Position numbers and translations under genes: made by a program. A stretch of 64,000 nt of DNA from an uncultured Acidobacteriia bacterium (lineage in GTDB: Bacteria; Acidobacteriota; Terriglobia; Bryobacterales; Bryobacteraceae). The notes below the pieces were generated by a model that was given only the letters and a program-made list of their open reading frames with translations, was not told the origin of the DNA and ran no database searches. Within the stretch, counting starts at the first letter, position 1. Every line of letters begins with the position of its first letter. The DNA lies in NCBI GenBank assembly GCA_903825445.1, contig CAIKAS010000277.1, positions 20,639 to 84,638 of the forward strand, given 5' to 3'. Shown here in pieces: positions 8,640 through 21,779 of this stretch.

Positions 8640-9359
8640 TCAGCCAGTTCTGTATCTACTGAAGGGCTCGGCGATATAATTAACAATCTCAGATAGCACA
8701 ACCGCCGCCGTCATACCTGCCGTCGTCATGCATAACGTTTCGAGATCATCCTCAAGGTAAATTCCAGACCGAGGGTTAACCAAACAGACTGTTTTAATAT
8801 CGTATTTCTTTATGCTGAAATTAAGAGCACAGTAGCAAAGCAACTGTCTGATATCAGCGCCGCGAAATTGCCGTTCACCGGCCTTCACCTCGAAGAGTGT
8901 GTAATCTCCGAGCACATCGCCTACCGCTTCGTCGAGCCACCCACATCCGGGAAAAGACGGCTTAGCAAGAAGGTTTCTTATAGGGCGGCCAGAAAAAAAT
9001 GCGCTTAGACTCTTTGCAACCGTTGCTGCCTCGCGTAATCCATATTTACCCATCGGCTGCGGAGGCAGTCCAGAAGAGTGCGGCATTTTGGCAATGTAGG
9101 CCAAGGCTTCGCTCGCACACTGGGAGATAAGATTCTCGGGAAGATCTGGCACTGGGACTGATAGCCGCAGTGATGCAGCGAATAATAGAAAAGCACATTC
9201 GTTAACCAAACCCCTCTGGTCAGGCGGAACCAGCGAGTACAGGGGAGCGGCAAATCGGCATAACCTCACGTTGCGCGTCCGAATGTAAGGCTCCTCCATG
9301 GGTAACAGGGAGTTCCAGAAGGCAGAATGGGAAAGAGAGAAGCGCTTTTCGCTTATCAT
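8640..9359 (-). CDS. PD-(D/E)XK nuclease-like protein coupled to the reverse transcriptase
   Basis: 239 residues; no family name recognised. The C-terminal half contains a pattern expected of the restriction-endonuclease-like fold: GDVLGDYTLFEVKAG (candidate Asp148, Glu157 and Lys159), then a helix with RQLLCYCAL (Gln172), then a strand ending CLVNPRSG. The N-terminal half (about 1-110) is helical and may bind a partner or nucleic acid. The ATG overlaps the reverse-transcriptase stop in an ATGA, so the two proteins are probably made together at a fixed ratio. No signal peptide or membrane segment. Inference: effector or processing nuclease of an RT-based defence module. The motif is readable by eye, but fold membership needs a structure or profile comparison. 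Confidence 0.72.
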   Translation of the reverse strand: MISEKRFSLSHSAFWNSLLPMEEPYIRTRNVRLCRFAAPLYSLVPPDQRGLVNECAFLLFAASLRLSVPVPDLPENLISQCASEALAYIAKMPHSSGLPPQPMGKYGLREAATVAKSLSAFFSGRPIRNLLAKPSFPGCGWLDEAVGDVLGDYTLFEVKAGERQFRGADIRQLLCYCALNFSIKKYDIKTVCLVNPRSGIYLEDDLETLCMTTAGMTAAVVLSEIVNYIAEPFSRYRTG

Positions 9360-11152
9360 AATGGCAAATCCCAGGTACGCCCATTGTTCTTCTCACCCAC
9401 CCACTTCATGAACTCCGAATCGGTTTCGCTGAATTCATCCCGAAACCTATGCCTCCAGTGTCTTCCCTCATCCCCTAAGATGTACGACGCTACGATTAGT
9501 GCCCGCTTTTCCCAAGGCGTCAGGATCGCAAAACGTTTCAGCTGTTCCGAAAGCCAATAGTCCACGCGTCGGCGAGTCATCGCGAGTAATACATCCCGTT
9601 TCACCATCATGTCGGTCTTTGGCCGGTGGTAGACGTCGATGAGCAATGCGTCTGTTTCCTCCGCGCGATCAAACGCCAAAATGTGAATTGCAAAACTGAG
9701 GTTCGCGGGAACCAAAAAAATATGCGAATTCTGGACGATAAGGTTACGAATCGTTTCAAACACTTCGAGCCTGATCTCCTCTGATAGCTCGTCTAACAGA
9801 CGGTGCAACACGATCGCGACGCTCGGGAAAATAGGATACAGTATCCGGAGGTTTCGTACTACTGAACGCGCTGCCGCATCACGAAGCAGTGGAGGAAGGA
9901 AGCGAATTGACTTCACGAGTTGGCGTGTGAGGCCTTCATCAATCCTGCTTTTGTTTAGCTCCCGCGACAGCATGCCCGTAATATCAAAGCGTGCAAGCTC
10001 CTCTCGGAGTTGCTCGTATTGCGCGTCTGCGGTAGGTGAATACGGATCGTACGCCAAGCGAAGGCCTAGGAACTCTTTTGCCGTTGCCTCATCTACAGAA
10101 TCGGCCGCTACTGGTTCTGCCATCGGCGATGATCGGGTGAATTCAGCCTTGGACATGAGCCGTGTCTTAGCCCGTGCGAGCGTGAGACCCTCATTGGCCA
10201 AGAGAACCTCACTAAGCTGTACGAGCGCGCTCTGTGCGGATGTGGCAGAATCAGCAAAGATCAGATAGTCATCAACAAACCTGCAAAAGCGAATGCCCGC
10301 GGCAAGTAGTAACCGATCTGTTCTGTTGAGCAGGAGTTCCGCGAGCAGACGAGCCGCGTTACCGCCTACGGGCAGACCGTAAGACGGGCCACCGGACAAA
10401 CGCTTCAGGATTTCCATGACTCGTTTGACCGCCTCAGTCTCCGTCGTAGCCTGCTTGAGCGCGTTCTCTAGTCGATGATGATAAATGCGCGGATAGAAGT
10501 CTGATATGTCGGTCGATATAACGAACTCAGCTGAATTGACGTATTCGAGAGCCGTGCGATGGAACATCGCCCAGCCGATTTCAGGATTGAAAAGTGTGTT
10601 GCGTTCATTAGAGAGATTGAATCGGTACGAGAAAATGATCTTTTTTTCGACTGGAAGTCGAGCTTTCTCAATATCGCTCCCAATTTCAATGAGTAACGCC
10701 AGAAGATATGCATTCCATATTGGGTCAATTTGAGACGCGGCACGAAATCCGTGGTAGCCGACACTCGCCAGGCCTGTGGAAAAATTTACGGGATACGTTC
10801 TTAGCCAGCGGTCAAAGTCCGCATCCAGAGACATCAGGAGCCGGGTAACAGCCTCTTCATCATCGTGAAACCAATGGTTCTCAAGCGGAAAGGGAAATAC
10901 GTCCGTGTCGCCGTGGTGGGCAACGTTACGAACGGCAAAAAGGGCGCTCTCTTTGCTTATAGCCATCAGGTCGAGTTCCTTCGGTTCGAACAACTGGGCC
11001 CCGTATTTGCAAGCTGCTCCAAACTGGCGGGACCGCGACGCTTTTGCTAGTTCATCTAACCGATCATAGCGACGTATTCGGCGGTCATGTCTCCTATCCC
11101 ATTGAACTTTCAGGAAACGGGACGACTGCGTCGCCGGGAACGGTTTCGACAA
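9356..11152 (-). CDS. Reverse transcriptase of the Abi/UG (defence-associated) type
   Basis: 598 residues. Palm motifs: motif A STDISDFYPRIY (Asp215), motif B GLPVGGNAARLLAEL (about 259-273) and motif C CRFVDDYLIFADS, with FVDD at 292-295 in place of YADD. The following LTLARAKTRL fits motif D. The region after about residue 400 is long and helical (roughly 200 residues), like the alpha-repeat tails of abortive-infection and unknown-group reverse transcriptases. I see no intron maturase, HNH or retron-specific region. The only long-ORF start is TTG at 11152, inside a broken DUF433-like reading frame, so the true N-terminus is uncertain. The coding DNA is visibly lower in GC than its neighbours (47% over line 10501 versus 65% over line 13501, counted by hand). 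Downstream is the overlapping nuclease-like gene. Confidence 0.88.
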   Translation of the reverse strand: MSKPFPATQSSRFLKVQWDRRHDRRIRRYDRLDELAKASRSRQFGAACKYGAQLFEPKELDLMAISKESALFAVRNVAHHGDTDVFPFPLENHWFHDDEEAVTRLLMSLDADFDRWLRTYPVNFSTGLASVGYHGFRAASQIDPIWNAYLLALLIEIGSDIEKARLPVEKKIIFSYRFNLSNERNTLFNPEIGWAMFHRTALEYVNSAEFVISTDISDFYPRIYHHRLENALKQATTETEAVKRVMEILKRLSGGPSYGLPVGGNAARLLAELLLNRTDRLLLAAGIRFCRFVDDYLIFADSATSAQSALVQLSEVLLANEGLTLARAKTRLMSKAEFTRSSPMAEPVAADSVDEATAKEFLGLRLAYDPYSPTADAQYEQLREELARFDITGMLSRELNKSRIDEGLTRQLVKSIRFLPPLLRDAAARSVVRNLRILYPIFPSVAIVLHRLLDELSEEIRLEVFETIRNLIVQNSHIFLVPANLSFAIHILAFDRAEETDALLIDVYHRPKTDMMVKRDVLLAMTRRRVDYWLSEQLKRFAILTPWEKRALIVASYILGDEGRHWRHRFRDEFSETDSEFMKWVGEKNNGRTWDLPL

Positions 11153-14538: not shown

Positions 14539-14561
14539 ACGAGAAACGGAGATTGTTCCCT

Positions 14562-15077
14562 ATGAAGATTGTGTCGTCCAAAGAAGTGTTCGCGTGTAGC
14601 CTGTTCCGCGTCACTGAAAACGAAGCTACGGATAAGACCGGCTTTAAGATTCGGCGGTTCGTGGTGCGCCACAACGGATCGGCTGTGATTATGCCGGTGG
14701 ATGCGAAGAACCGCGTGCTGCTGGTGAGGCAGTATCGATTGCCGGCGGACAAATACTTGTGGGAGCTTCCCGCAGGCAAGATCGACGACGGAGAGACGGC
14801 GCTGCAGGCATCGAAGCGCGAACTGGTGGAGGAAACGGGGTTACGGGCGAAGAAATGGAAAAAACTGGCGATGTTCTATCCGAGCCCGGGCTTCCTGGAA
14901 GAAGCCATGACGATCTACCTGGCCACTGAACTCACGGTGGGAGCAGCGCAACCGATGGAAGATGAACGCATTGAAACGCGATGGTTCGGGAAGAAGGAAC
15001 TGCGGGAAATGATCCGGACGAATGCGATTGCGGATGCCAAGACGATGATTGGATTTCTACACTGGGACAGGCTCTGA
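14562..15077 (+). CDS. Nudix hydrolase, ADP-ribose pyrophosphatase type
   Basis: 171 residues from the ATG at 14562; the TTG at 14553 in the track lies too close to the GGAG ribosome-binding site. The Nudix box GX5EX7REUXEEXGU is complete (starting GKIDDGETALQ and ending RELVEETGL). The Pro-rich YPSPGFLEEAM segment fits the ADP-ribose pyrophosphatase (NudF) group, which cleaves ADP-ribose to AMP and ribose-5-phosphate. Substrate is inferred from this resemblance. It follows polX after about 23 bases. Confidence 0.88.
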   Translation: MKIVSSKEVFACSLFRVTENEATDKTGFKIRRFVVRHNGSAVIMPVDAKNRVLLVRQYRLPADKYLWELPAGKIDDGETALQASKRELVEETGLRAKKWKKLAMFYPSPGFLEEAMTIYLATELTVGAAQPMEDERIETRWFGKKELREMIRTNAIADAKTMIGFLHWDRL

Positions 15078-15127: not shown

Positions 15128-15152
15128 AAAAACGCAGATCCGAAGATCTGCG
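15128..15152 (-). terminator. Second intrinsic terminator of the Lys/Ala-rich peptide gene
   Basis: On the minus strand CGCAGATC and GATCTGCG form an 8-bp perfect stem closed by a TTCG tetraloop and followed by TTTTT. The U-run exists only in the minus direction, so it serves the small gene at 15203-15280, not the Nudix gene. Confidence 0.8.
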
Positions 15153-15163
15153 TCATGAACATC

Positions 15164-15196
15164 AAAAAGAAAAAGGGCAGATCCGAAGACCTGCCC
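15164..15196 (-). terminator. First intrinsic terminator of the Lys/Ala-rich peptide gene
   Basis: On the minus strand GGGCAGGTC and GATCTGCCC pair (one G-T wobble) around a TTCG tetraloop, followed by TTTTTCTTTTT. It begins 6 bases after the stop codon of the 25-residue peptide gene. Loop and inner stem resemble the second terminator, so the pair looks like a duplicated element. Confidence 0.85.
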
Positions 15197-15202
15197 TGGA
15201 GG

Positions 15203-15280
15203 CTACTTTTTCTTTGCAGCCTTTTTCTTTGCGACTGCCTTCTTAGGGGCGGCCTTCTTTGCGGCTTTCTTTGTTGCCAT
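15203..15280 (-). CDS. 25-residue Lys/Ala-rich histone-H1-tail-like peptide
   Basis: Not in the ORF track because it is short. ATG at 15280, TAG at 15205-15203. The sequence is almost only Lys and Ala with one Pro (MATKKAAKKAAPKKAVA and so on), like the tails of histone H1 or bacterial AlgP/HU-type proteins that bind DNA or RNA through charge. Support for a real gene: GGGAG ribosome-binding site 10 bases upstream, a plausible promoter above it and two tandem intrinsic terminators just after the stop. I infer a highly expressed nucleic-acid-binding peptide. No homologue can be named. Confidence 0.72.
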   Translation of the reverse strand: MATKKAAKKAAPKKAVAKKKAAKKK

Positions 15281-15302
15281 GTTGTTAATTCTCCCGTCCT
15301 CT

Positions 15303-15330
15303 ATTATGTAACATCTTTGGCAAAAGTAAA
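15303..15330 (-). promoter_or_regulatory. Candidate sigma-70-type promoter of the Lys/Ala peptide gene
   Basis: Minus strand: TTTACT (15330-15325), 16-base spacer, CATAAT (15308-15303), about 22 bases before the ATG. Upstream lies an AT-rich tract (TTTTTGCATTTTTTTG) reminiscent of an UP element. Match is by eye only. Confidence 0.45.
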
Positions 15331-15402
15331 ACAAAAAAATGCAAAAATGTTTTGGGGGTGGTACCATGCGCCGCGGGTGGCCGGATGGTACAAGGGTACT
15401 CA

Positions 15403-15846
15403 GTGAAGAAAATTCAACTCATAACGGATGGTGCGTGCCTCGGAAACCCGGGACCTGGAGGATGGGCAGCCATCCTTTTGCATGGCGAACATCGCAAGGA
15501 ATTATTCGGCTGCGAAGCGCACACAACAAACAATCGAATGGAGCTCACGGCTGCGATTGAAGGGCTGCGCGCGCTGCGCGAACGCTGCGACGTGGAAGTG
15601 GTGACGGATTCCGAGTACATGAAGAACGGCATCACACTTTGGATCACGAACTGGAAGAAGCGCGGGTGGATGACGTCGCAGAAGAAGCCAGTGGTCAACC
15701 GCGATCTGTGGGAATTGCTGGATCACGAGACGACGCGCCACGCGACGCGATGGAGTTGGACGAAGGGGCATGCGTCGCACGCGGACAACAATCGCGCGGA
15801 TGTACTGGCATCGCTCGCCGCGAAGGAACAGCGTTCGTCGGAGTGA
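15403..15846 (+). CDS. rnhA: Ribonuclease HI
   Basis: 147 residues from the GTG at 15403, which has CAAGGG six bases upstream and begins in register with the family (KKIQLITDGACLGNPG); the track start at 15352 adds an unconserved leader. Catalytic residues are visible: Asp in ITDGA, Glu in NNRMELTAAI, Asp in VTDSEY and the distal Asp in NNRADVLA, plus the basic handle KKRGW. RNase HI removes RNA from RNA-DNA hybrids, including R-loops and primer remnants. Confidence 0.95.
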   Translation: MKKIQLITDGACLGNPGPGGWAAILLHGEHRKELFGCEAHTTNNRMELTAAIEGLRALRERCDVEVVTDSEYMKNGITLWITNWKKRGWMTSQKKPVVNRDLWELLDHETTRHATRWSWTKGHASHADNNRADVLASLAAKEQRSSE

Positions 15847-18811: not shown

Positions 18812-18914
18812 AAAAATCTTACGCCTAACCATTGCATTGAGTTAGCGGCAAACCAGCCAAATTTGCGCGCCGGATTTGCGGCGCGGGGATGGTACTGCTG
18901 TTGCCAGGAGCAGC

Positions 18915-21779
18915 ATGCGATCTCAAAGAAAAAAACTCACATTGCTGGGCCCGGCCATCATTCTTGCGTCGGTGCTCTGCGGAACAATCTGGGGCCAGAG
19001 CGCCCTCACTACAATTCAGGACACTCTGTTCGATGCGGACGGCCAGCGGTACTATGGCTCGCTCACTATCCAATGGAGTACATTCGACACGAACAATCCG
19101 GGCACTATCGTGCAGCAGAGCCGAACTGTTCAGGTGGTCAACGGCAATCTGCTGGTTCAACTGGCGCCGAACAGCGCAGCCACGCCACCGGCAAACGTCT
19201 ACTCAGTCCTTTATCAAAGCGACGGAGATCAGCAGTACACCGAGACGTGGACGGTTCCGGTGAGCGCGACGCCACTACGAGTGGCGCAGGTGAGAACGGG
19301 AGCGGGCGTAGCGGGCTCGGGATCAGCAGGCGGGCTAACGGGCGGGAGTACAGGAACGGTGACGGAAGCGTCAGTAACCAACCTTGTATCCGACCTGAAT
19401 GCGCGGCCGATTAAGGGACCGGGTTACGGCACGAATGCTGTAGCGGTGGTCGACCAGAACGGACTCCTGGAAACAGCGGTGGGCAATCTGGGTGACTGTC
19501 TATTCGTCGATGGGACGACAGGACCGTGTACCTCCGGGCTCATACTGCCAACGTTCATTAACGGTGAGGTGCCTGGCGGCCTGGTGAATGGATTGAACGC
19601 CACGTTTACGCTGGCGAACACTCCTAGCGGAACCAGTCTTCTGCTGTTTCGCAATGGCATCCTGTTGCAGGCAGGAACAGACTATGCACTCACAGGCTCA
19701 ACTGTTCAGTTTGCGAGTGGCGCGATTCCACAGCCACAGGATACGCTGATGGCAACTTATCGACTCGACTCCGGTTCGAGTGGCAGTTCCGGGAGCCCGG
19801 CAACAGGGCCGAGCGGCGTGCCTGGCATCAACGGATGCGGCGCGGTGGGGACGGCGAGCAAGAGCGCAGCGTACCAGATACAGGCGTCGGACAACGGCTA
19901 TCTGCTCATTCAGACTACGAGCGCCGGTTTCGCGCTTCCCGTGACAGTTCCGGCTGTCGGCTGGTGCGCGGTGTTGCTAAACACGAACTCCGGCAGCATT
20001 GCGGTTAGCAACAATGGCAATGCGATCAACGGAGTGGTTGGAGCGTACGCGCTTGCGTCCACGAACGCGGTCGCTATGATTTCGGACGGGACGCGCTATT
20101 GGACGTCGGGCGCGAATGGACAGCAGGGTCCAACGGGCGCCACAGGCATACAAGGTGTGGCGGGGGCAACGGGGCCAAGTGGCGCGCAGGGTATTGCTGG
20201 TCCGACTGGCACTGCGGGTGCAGCTGGGGTTGCCGGCGCCACCGGACCACAGGGTGCGGTGGGAGCTACAGGGCTGAGTGGCGCGCAGGGTATCGCTGGT
20301 CCCACCGGCACAGCAGGGACCGCCGGTGTTGCCGGTGTTGCCGGTGCAACCGGACCACAAGGCGTAGCGGGAGCTACGGGATCAACGGGCGCGCAGGGAA
20401 TCGCTGGTCCTGCTGGCACCGGGGGTGCGACCGGTGCGGCAGGTCCCACCGGATCAGTGGGCGCAACCGGCGCTTCGCTTGTTTCACCAACTGCCAATCT
20501 GTTTACGGAAGTGACTCCGACGGTCCGCTACGTTGCATCGTCACTCACGTACGCCAATGGCTCAACCGTGAGTACATGGTCGGATTCCAGCGGTCATGGA
20601 AACAACGCTTCGCTTACAAGCGGTGCACCGGTGATGAATCGCCAGACCACCAGCGGGGTTCCGGCGGTACATTTCGGTGGGTCCGACTGGATGGGGATTC
20701 CCGGCAGCGCGAGTTTCAATCAGCAGTCCGCAACGGTGTGTACGGTTATCGAGAACATCAATCCGAGCAGCGCGACGATGGTCTACCTGAACCTTGGGTC
20801 GGGCGGCTCGGGTCCGGCGGACTGGTACCTGCAATCGGAGTCCAGCGGGCTTTACACAATTTCCGACGAGTATATGGCCGGAGAGAACACGGTGGCTTCC
20901 CTCGGCGTGCATCCGGCAGCGATGAGCGCGAGTTGCACGGCCATGAGTTCCAGCGCGGTAACTGCATACCGGCCGGACGGTTCGGTATACACTGGATCCG
21001 CTCTTGCCTCTGGCAGCGTAACGGGCGGGCAGATCGCCTCATGGACGACGGGCGGCAGCTATCAGTATGCGGGCAACATGTACGAGATCGACGTCTTTCC
21101 TTCAGCGTTGACCTTAAATCAGATTCAGGAGTGGTTCGCTTATTCGCGCGCCACTTACGGAACACCGCAGTACGGCGGACAAGTCGTAAGGATAACTAAA
21201 ACCGGCGACTCCATCACGGCTGGCGTCAACAGCACACTGGAGCTGAATATTCAGAATCAATCCTACCCGAACTGGAAATCAGGCCAGTTTATTCCTGTGG
21301 AACTAAACTATGGCCAGGGCGGCCAGACGCTTCAGGCGGTATCGGCTGGCACGGTGGCTGCGATCACTGCTGCATACAATTCCGGCTATGCGCTGAATGT
21401 TCTGGAGATCAGCTACGGATTCAACGATATTGTGCTGAACGCCGCCACTGCGGCAAGCGTGGAAGGTTACCTGAATACGTACATCTCGTCCATTCATACA
21501 GCCCAGCCCGGATGGATGATCCTGGTTGACACGGTGACGCCGTACAACGTGGCCGGGTGTGCTACCGATTCGATTCGAAATACGTTCAATTCGTGGCTTT
21601 TGGCCTCCCTGCCTGCGAACGTGAACGGGATCGTTAATTACACGGTGGATTCAGTAATGAATACATGTCAGGCGACGAACTCCATGTACTACACCGGCTA
21701 TCATCCGACGAATTCCGGGTACGAAAGACTGGCGAGGATCAGGCGTAATTATTTGGATCTGTTTATTGCCACGCACTAA
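18915..21779 (+). CDS. Secreted modular protein: collagen-like repeats, LamG-like region, SGNH hydrolase domain
   Basis: 954 residues from the ATG at 18915 (CAGGAG just upstream), which begins a signal peptide ([21 protein letters not shown]). Parts in order: an N-terminal beta domain (about 30-200); a Ser/Gly-rich middle; collagen-like G-x-y triplets (about 405-520) rich in GAT, GPT and GPQ; a beta-rich LamG-like region (about 525-755, starting near [12 protein letters not shown]); and a C-terminal SGNH domain with GDSITAG (764-770), [13 protein letters not shown] (Asn837) and YHPTNSGY (His930). The Asp usual three residues before that His is absent. Inference: extracellular fibrous adhesin or stalk carrying an esterase that acts on polysaccharide. 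No anchor seen. Confidence 0.85.
20127..20474 (+). repeat. Collagen-like coding repeats with near-identical DNA units
   Basis: Uninterrupted Gly-x-y codons. At the DNA level the segment beginning GGCGCGCAGGG recurs at 20181, 20280 and 20388, spacing 99 and 108 bases (33 and 36 residues), with only synonymous or conservative changes. Such arrays expand and contract by slippage or recombination. Not a CRISPR: units are in frame and coding, with no unique spacers. Confidence 0.85.

Follow-up and report, generated by a model that had tools for sequence, protein, structure and literature searches.

The region between a NUDIX hydrolase gene and an RNase HI gene in a 64-kb window of genome G000 (the window being the whole stretch of DNA analyzed, 64,000 nucleotides) raises the question of whether a 25-codon frame on its minus strand, coding almost only for Lys and Ala, is a gene and, if so, on what its product could act. 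An initial annotation had proposed a complete small transcription unit with promoter, ribosome-binding site (RBS), Lys/Ala frame, and twin terminators, and all of these elements were located on the minus strand (Table 1). The product contains 12 Lys, 9 Ala, and one each of Met, Thr, Pro, and Val, with no acidic residues. The hexamers TTTACT and CATAAT are separated by 16 bp, and transcription would start near position 15296, seven bases past the −10 element, giving a leader of ∼16 nt. By itself, the 9/12 promoter match was at chance level (1 found versus 0.6 expected in 2.5 kb); the stability of the peptide-gene RNA exceeded that of shuffled sequences (z, −3.4).

Table 1. Features of the Lys/Ala peptide gene and its neighbors (window coordinates)
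Feature	Position	Strand	Remarks
Peptide CDS	15203..15280	−	ATG at 15280; 25 codons and a TAG stop, ending at 15203; product MATKKAAKKAAPKKAVAKKKAAKKK
A/T block AAACATTTTT	15343..15352	−	Invariant in 15/15 orthologous loci
TTTACT, −35 proposed in the initial annotation	15325..15330	−	Poorly conserved
−10 element CATAAT	15303..15308	−	In 14/15 orthologues; TATAGT in the remaining one (G008)
RBS GGGAGAAT	15288..15295	−	GGGAG at 15291..15295; GGAGAAT invariant in 15/15; within the class-wide pattern
Intrinsic terminator 1	15174..15197	−	10-bp stem, TTCG loop, T-rich tail
Intrinsic terminator 2	15131..15154	−	10-bp stem, TTCG loop, T-rich tail; G000, G001, and G002 only
NUDIX hydrolase gene, convergent neighbor	14553..15077	+	Pfam PF00293 (E value, 4.7e−20)
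RNase HI gene, divergent neighbor	15400..15846	+	Pfam PF00075 (E value, 1.3e−44)

RNase HI was located in 81 of 101 related genomes, and the 2 to 2.6 kb around it was taken in 70, with the upstream strand being read; the genomes compared were mostly metagenome bins. The window's genus was represented by 19 genomes, RNase HI being obtained from 18. A Lys/Ala frame starting with MAT lay between the NUDIX and RNase HI genes, which are also the neighbors in the orthologous loci, in 15 of the 19 genus genomes, and was absent from the loci outside the genus among the 70 that were read. Named records exist for five of the orthologues (CAIXXM010000052.1 and RGPS01000105.1 among them). Across the 15 genomes the products ranged from 23 to 148 aa, and length changes were always in frame. 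The short forms were of 23 aa (G007 and G009) or 25 aa (G000 and G001), followed by forms of 29 (G002), 37 (G005), 50 (G013), 60 (G012), 74 (G006), and 76 aa (G011) and by long forms of 83 (G010), 90 (G004), 97 (G003), 122 (G008), and 148 aa (G015). In a tree built from RNase HI and NUDIX sequences, the rooting of which was not strong, the four short forms made up one clade (support, 0.98) nested among the forms of 29 to 148 aa, so that the short state probably derives from longer forms by contraction.

The combination of A/T block, −10 element, and RBS occurred once per genome in 14 members of the genus and in none of the 82 other genomes searched. The A/T block AAACATTTTT lies between about −56 and −47 relative to the predicted transcription start and appears to resemble, in both position and sequence, the distal portion of an UP element, as judged from E. 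coli promoters. In an alignment of the 15 upstream regions TTTACT was not conserved, and it is probably not a critical promoter element, contrary to its earlier designation as the −35 sequence. A terminator followed the stop codon in most orthologues, with hairpins that varied in sequence and number. The twin terminators of the window were both confirmed, but only 3 of the 15 loci carried two and the others had one or a weak one, which undercuts the suggestion that double termination signals strong expression. Loss of the frame with retention of the hairpins had been named as the pattern that would speak against a peptide gene, and the opposite was found: frame and residues were conserved, and the hairpins varied.

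Among the four short forms pN/pS was 0.07, synonymous differences far outnumbering amino acid changes. Since pairwise pN/pS sums are not independent of one another, two phylogenetically independent pairs were also compared, in which 9 of 11 changes were synonymous against an expectation of 23 to 28% (P = 8e−5 to 3e−4). Between G000 and G001, identity was 90% in the CDS and 84% in the promoter, and 62 to 64% in the flanking spacer and terminator region. The in-frame length changes together with the pN/pS of the short forms therefore establish that the gene is protein coding and under purifying selection, being neither RNA-only nor decaying. With frame, start region, RBS, and −10 element kept at the same locus in 15 genomes and with codon changes biased toward synonymous ones, the unit stands far above chance, and it is a real, monocistronic, self-contained minus-strand gene, as initially annotated. 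It has probably been missed so far; genes of such small size and low complexity are easily overlooked by gene callers.

To define relatives of the gene, a pattern spanning the RBS and start region, GGAGAAT-N(2-9)-ATG-N(3-9)-ACN-AAR-AAR, was used, with the reversed pattern as control. It matched in 161 of 399 Terriglobia genomes, versus 1 control match, and 83 of the 90 loci fetched encode Lys/Ala peptides. Some matches were due to chance or repeats, such as the 25 copies of an unrelated sequence in G253, but most represent a sister gene of 12 to 27 codons, here termed the main form, encoding a tiny Lys/Ala peptide (e.g., MKNATKKAAKKAPAKKAAAKKKK). Beyond Terriglobia matches were near the control rate, with one convincing exception (G539, L356; MDMATKKKAAKKTTKKKAAKK). 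The main-form peptides had a median length of 21 aa (range, 12 to 76; 70/74 of ≤30 aa), and in the same 74 genes Lys made up 50% and Ala 30% of the residues, Asp and Glu being absent; aromatic residues were likewise lacking and arginine was very rare. Nearly all of the genes had a TTGACW hexamer exactly 17 bp from TATAWA or TATACM, a near-consensus σ70 promoter. A 5′-untranslated region (5′-UTR) hairpin was identified in 58 of 72 (10% in mononucleotide shuffles), and 3 of its 7 pairs showed compensatory changes. A strict intrinsic terminator within 110 nt was present in 60 of the 72, compared with 0.5% of shuffled sequences. Values of pN/pS were 0.05 to 0.11 in the five multigenome sets tested, and a main-form pair within the window's genus showed no amino acid change in 19 codons. 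As the neighbors differ, with RlpA and methyltransferase genes in many Bryobacterales and a thiolase gene in a second family, the main-form gene is free-standing. Bryobacterales bacterium F-183 (AP025252.1) is a named carrier. The shortest members, in L289 and L290, encode 12 aa (MATKKKAKKKKH) and retain promoter, leader hairpin, RBS, and terminator.

The window's genome carries the main form as well, encoding the 19-aa peptide MATKKKAAPKKKAAAKKKK (G000:C127; L226:1414-1573) behind a TTGACT-N17-TATATA promoter and a leader hairpin. The window's own gene fits the class-wide pattern, with GGAGAAT, 2 to 9 nt, ATG, 3 to 9 nt, and Thr-Lys-Lys codons followed by Lys/Ala only; the main form's TTGACW-N17-TATAWA promoter and 5′-UTR hairpin are lacking, its own promoter being different and its leader short. 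The two have in common their composition and a start region of the type GGAGAAT-N-ATG-(K-N)-A-T-K-K. The common start, GGAGAAT ... M-A-T-K-K, makes shared ancestry of the two likely; it falls short of proof, given that their promoters and leaders are different and that sequences of low complexity can converge. A third form was seen in L251 and L252 (G025 and G429), where Lys/Ala/Pro proteins of 100 to 114 aa have the same RBS and leader hairpin and a different promoter.

The gene joins a group of similarly tiny and strongly conserved genes across Terriglobia, the products of which probably bind DNA or another negatively charged polymer. It is proposed that the gene encodes a stand-alone, tail-only, histone H1-like polycationic microprotein, which would be unstructured in solution and made in quantity. 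By charge it would bind DNA, or nucleic acid generally, screening and bridging the backbone in the manner of the C-terminal tail of histone H1, chlamydial Hc2, and the KPAA tails of AlgP and PhaF, and it could thus act as a diffusible, partner-free counterion that compacts the nucleoid. High expression is suggested by the near-consensus promoters of the main form with their 17-bp spacing, disorder and polyanion binding are suggested by composition, and binding of DNA or RNA is plausible. That a free polycation of this kind binds DNA and acts on the nucleoid is, with its target deduced indirectly, about an even call. Lengths of 23 to 148 aa are tolerated at one locus, which fits a charge-based, nonstoichiometric action better than a fitted complex. 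Composition alone cannot tell a DNA target from RNA, the ribosome, or polyphosphate (polyP), and the neighbors (NUDIX and RNase HI genes here; often RlpA and methyltransferase genes for the main form) are uninformative on chromatin.

No Pfam, NCBIfam, or PDB match was obtained with the 25-aa peptide, including the HC2 model, NF038053, and NF050153, and no entry in these databases or in Rfam covers the short peptides. In the literature searched, which took in few subscription journals and was also searched for H1-like or small Acidobacteria proteins, no description of these peptides was found. The 60-aa orthologue matched HC2 (PF07382) with an E value of 1.6e−4 and 22.2 bits against a cutoff of 40, a match further weakened by the low-complexity sequence, and matched the Burkholderia histone H1-like family NF038053 (E value, 9e−4) and the Rv3852 family NF050153 (E value, 0.013) far below cutoff. 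The comparison with a histone H1 tail drawn in the initial annotation is apt by composition; the peptide would be H1-tail-like in its proposed working and is not classed as a member of the Hc2 family.

In composition and lysine spacing, the tail of mycobacterial HupB is alike. Tails of this type are attached to a globular DNA-binding domain, unlike the free peptide here, and the HU protein read from the window's genome had no Lys/Ala tail. Hc2 (HctB) of Chlamydia and BpH1 of Bordetella likewise contain Lys/Ala-rich repeats of variable number; another shared trait is that the short forms contain no further domain. Hc2 is 165 to 237 aa long, varying by its lysine-rich repeats (PMC2848022), against 23 to 148 aa at the present locus; with at least 165 aa and conserved ends it also differs from the shortest forms here, which are whole products of 12 to 27 residues. 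AlgP (AlgR3) and PhaF of Pseudomonas have a similar Lys/Ala/Pro-rich, H1-like tail, and peptides made of the KPAA repeats from AlgP bind DNA in vitro (PMC9239181). In those proteins the tail lies behind a folded N-terminal domain, whereas here, with the Lys/Ala tract beginning no more than five codons from the ATG and no such domain present, it is the entire protein.

The main rival to DNA as the target is RNA or the ribosome, the product being a small basic ribosome-associated or RNA-chaperone peptide, and this is considered unlikely but deserving of weight. In size and charge the peptides match small basic ribosome-bound peptides such as Thx of Thermus, which has about 26 aa, and the strength of the main-form promoters would suit a ribosome-associated product. 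A fitted ribosomal component would not, however, be expected to vary so widely in length between congeners, and the lack of aromatic residues, the scarcity of arginine, and the absence of a PDB chain match also argue against it. An improbable, lesser rival is that the peptide organizes polyP or another polyanion granule, as does the AlgP tail. The KPAA tail of AlgP is required for polyP granule spacing in Pseudomonas aeruginosa, and polyP forms condensates together with polycationic peptides (PMC9239181), but AlgP also needs its folded N-terminal domain, missing here, and no polyP gene adjoins the unit.

It is very improbable that the window's copy is a shrunken, functionless remnant of a longer H1-like protein: the nesting of the short clade makes contraction itself likely, but the strong purifying selection within that clade largely refutes a remnant, and promoter, RBS, and terminator are intact in all four short forms. 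A small regulatory RNA or attenuator leader peptide with an incidental Lys/Ala frame is scarcely credible despite the stable hairpins directly after the open reading frame and some compensatory changes in the main form's 5′-UTR hairpin, as amino acids are kept while codons drift, length changes preserve the frame, and neither the window nor 20 related loci gave an Rfam match at gathering score. For an attenuator there would be nothing to attenuate, since the next downstream gene, NUDIX, is on the opposite strand and no co-oriented gene follows the terminator.

The preferred reading, a free polycation acting on the nucleoid, would set these genes apart from the H1-like bacterial proteins described so far, which are tails on larger proteins or products of at least 165 aa. 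Here a gene with a promoter, RBS, and terminator of its own encodes nothing but the tail, 12 to 25 residues long, and such tail-only genes have been kept by selection throughout an abundant class of soil bacteria (Acidobacteriota). They offer a natural test of the minimal protein needed to act on the nucleoid (or on RNA or polyP), and the forms of 23 to 148 aa at a single locus offer a natural length series. More tentatively, and at rather less than even probability, Terriglobia may possess an ancient, almost universal complement of free polycation peptides with strong expression, reaching down to the 12 residues of MATKKKAKKKKH, which would be the smallest dedicated chromatin-type or counterion proteins known from bacteria. 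The window's gene would then represent a second locus of this type, specific to its genus, with a product that has been freely lengthened and shortened.

A further H1-tail-like protein is encoded elsewhere in the window's genome (L348:897-1637, plus strand; G000:C150). Its 246 aa comprise an N-terminal part that is acidic and an extended Lys/Ala tail, and similar proteins were found in G007 and G012. Within the window, positions 9356 to 11152 (minus strand) encode a 598-aa reverse transcriptase that matches the antiphage defense model Drt8 (PADLOC; E value, 5e−153) and is probably a DRT type 8 defense gene. Positions 18876 to 21779 (plus strand) encode a protein of 967 aa that combines collagen-like Gly-x-y repeats with a GDSL lipase-like domain at its C terminus.
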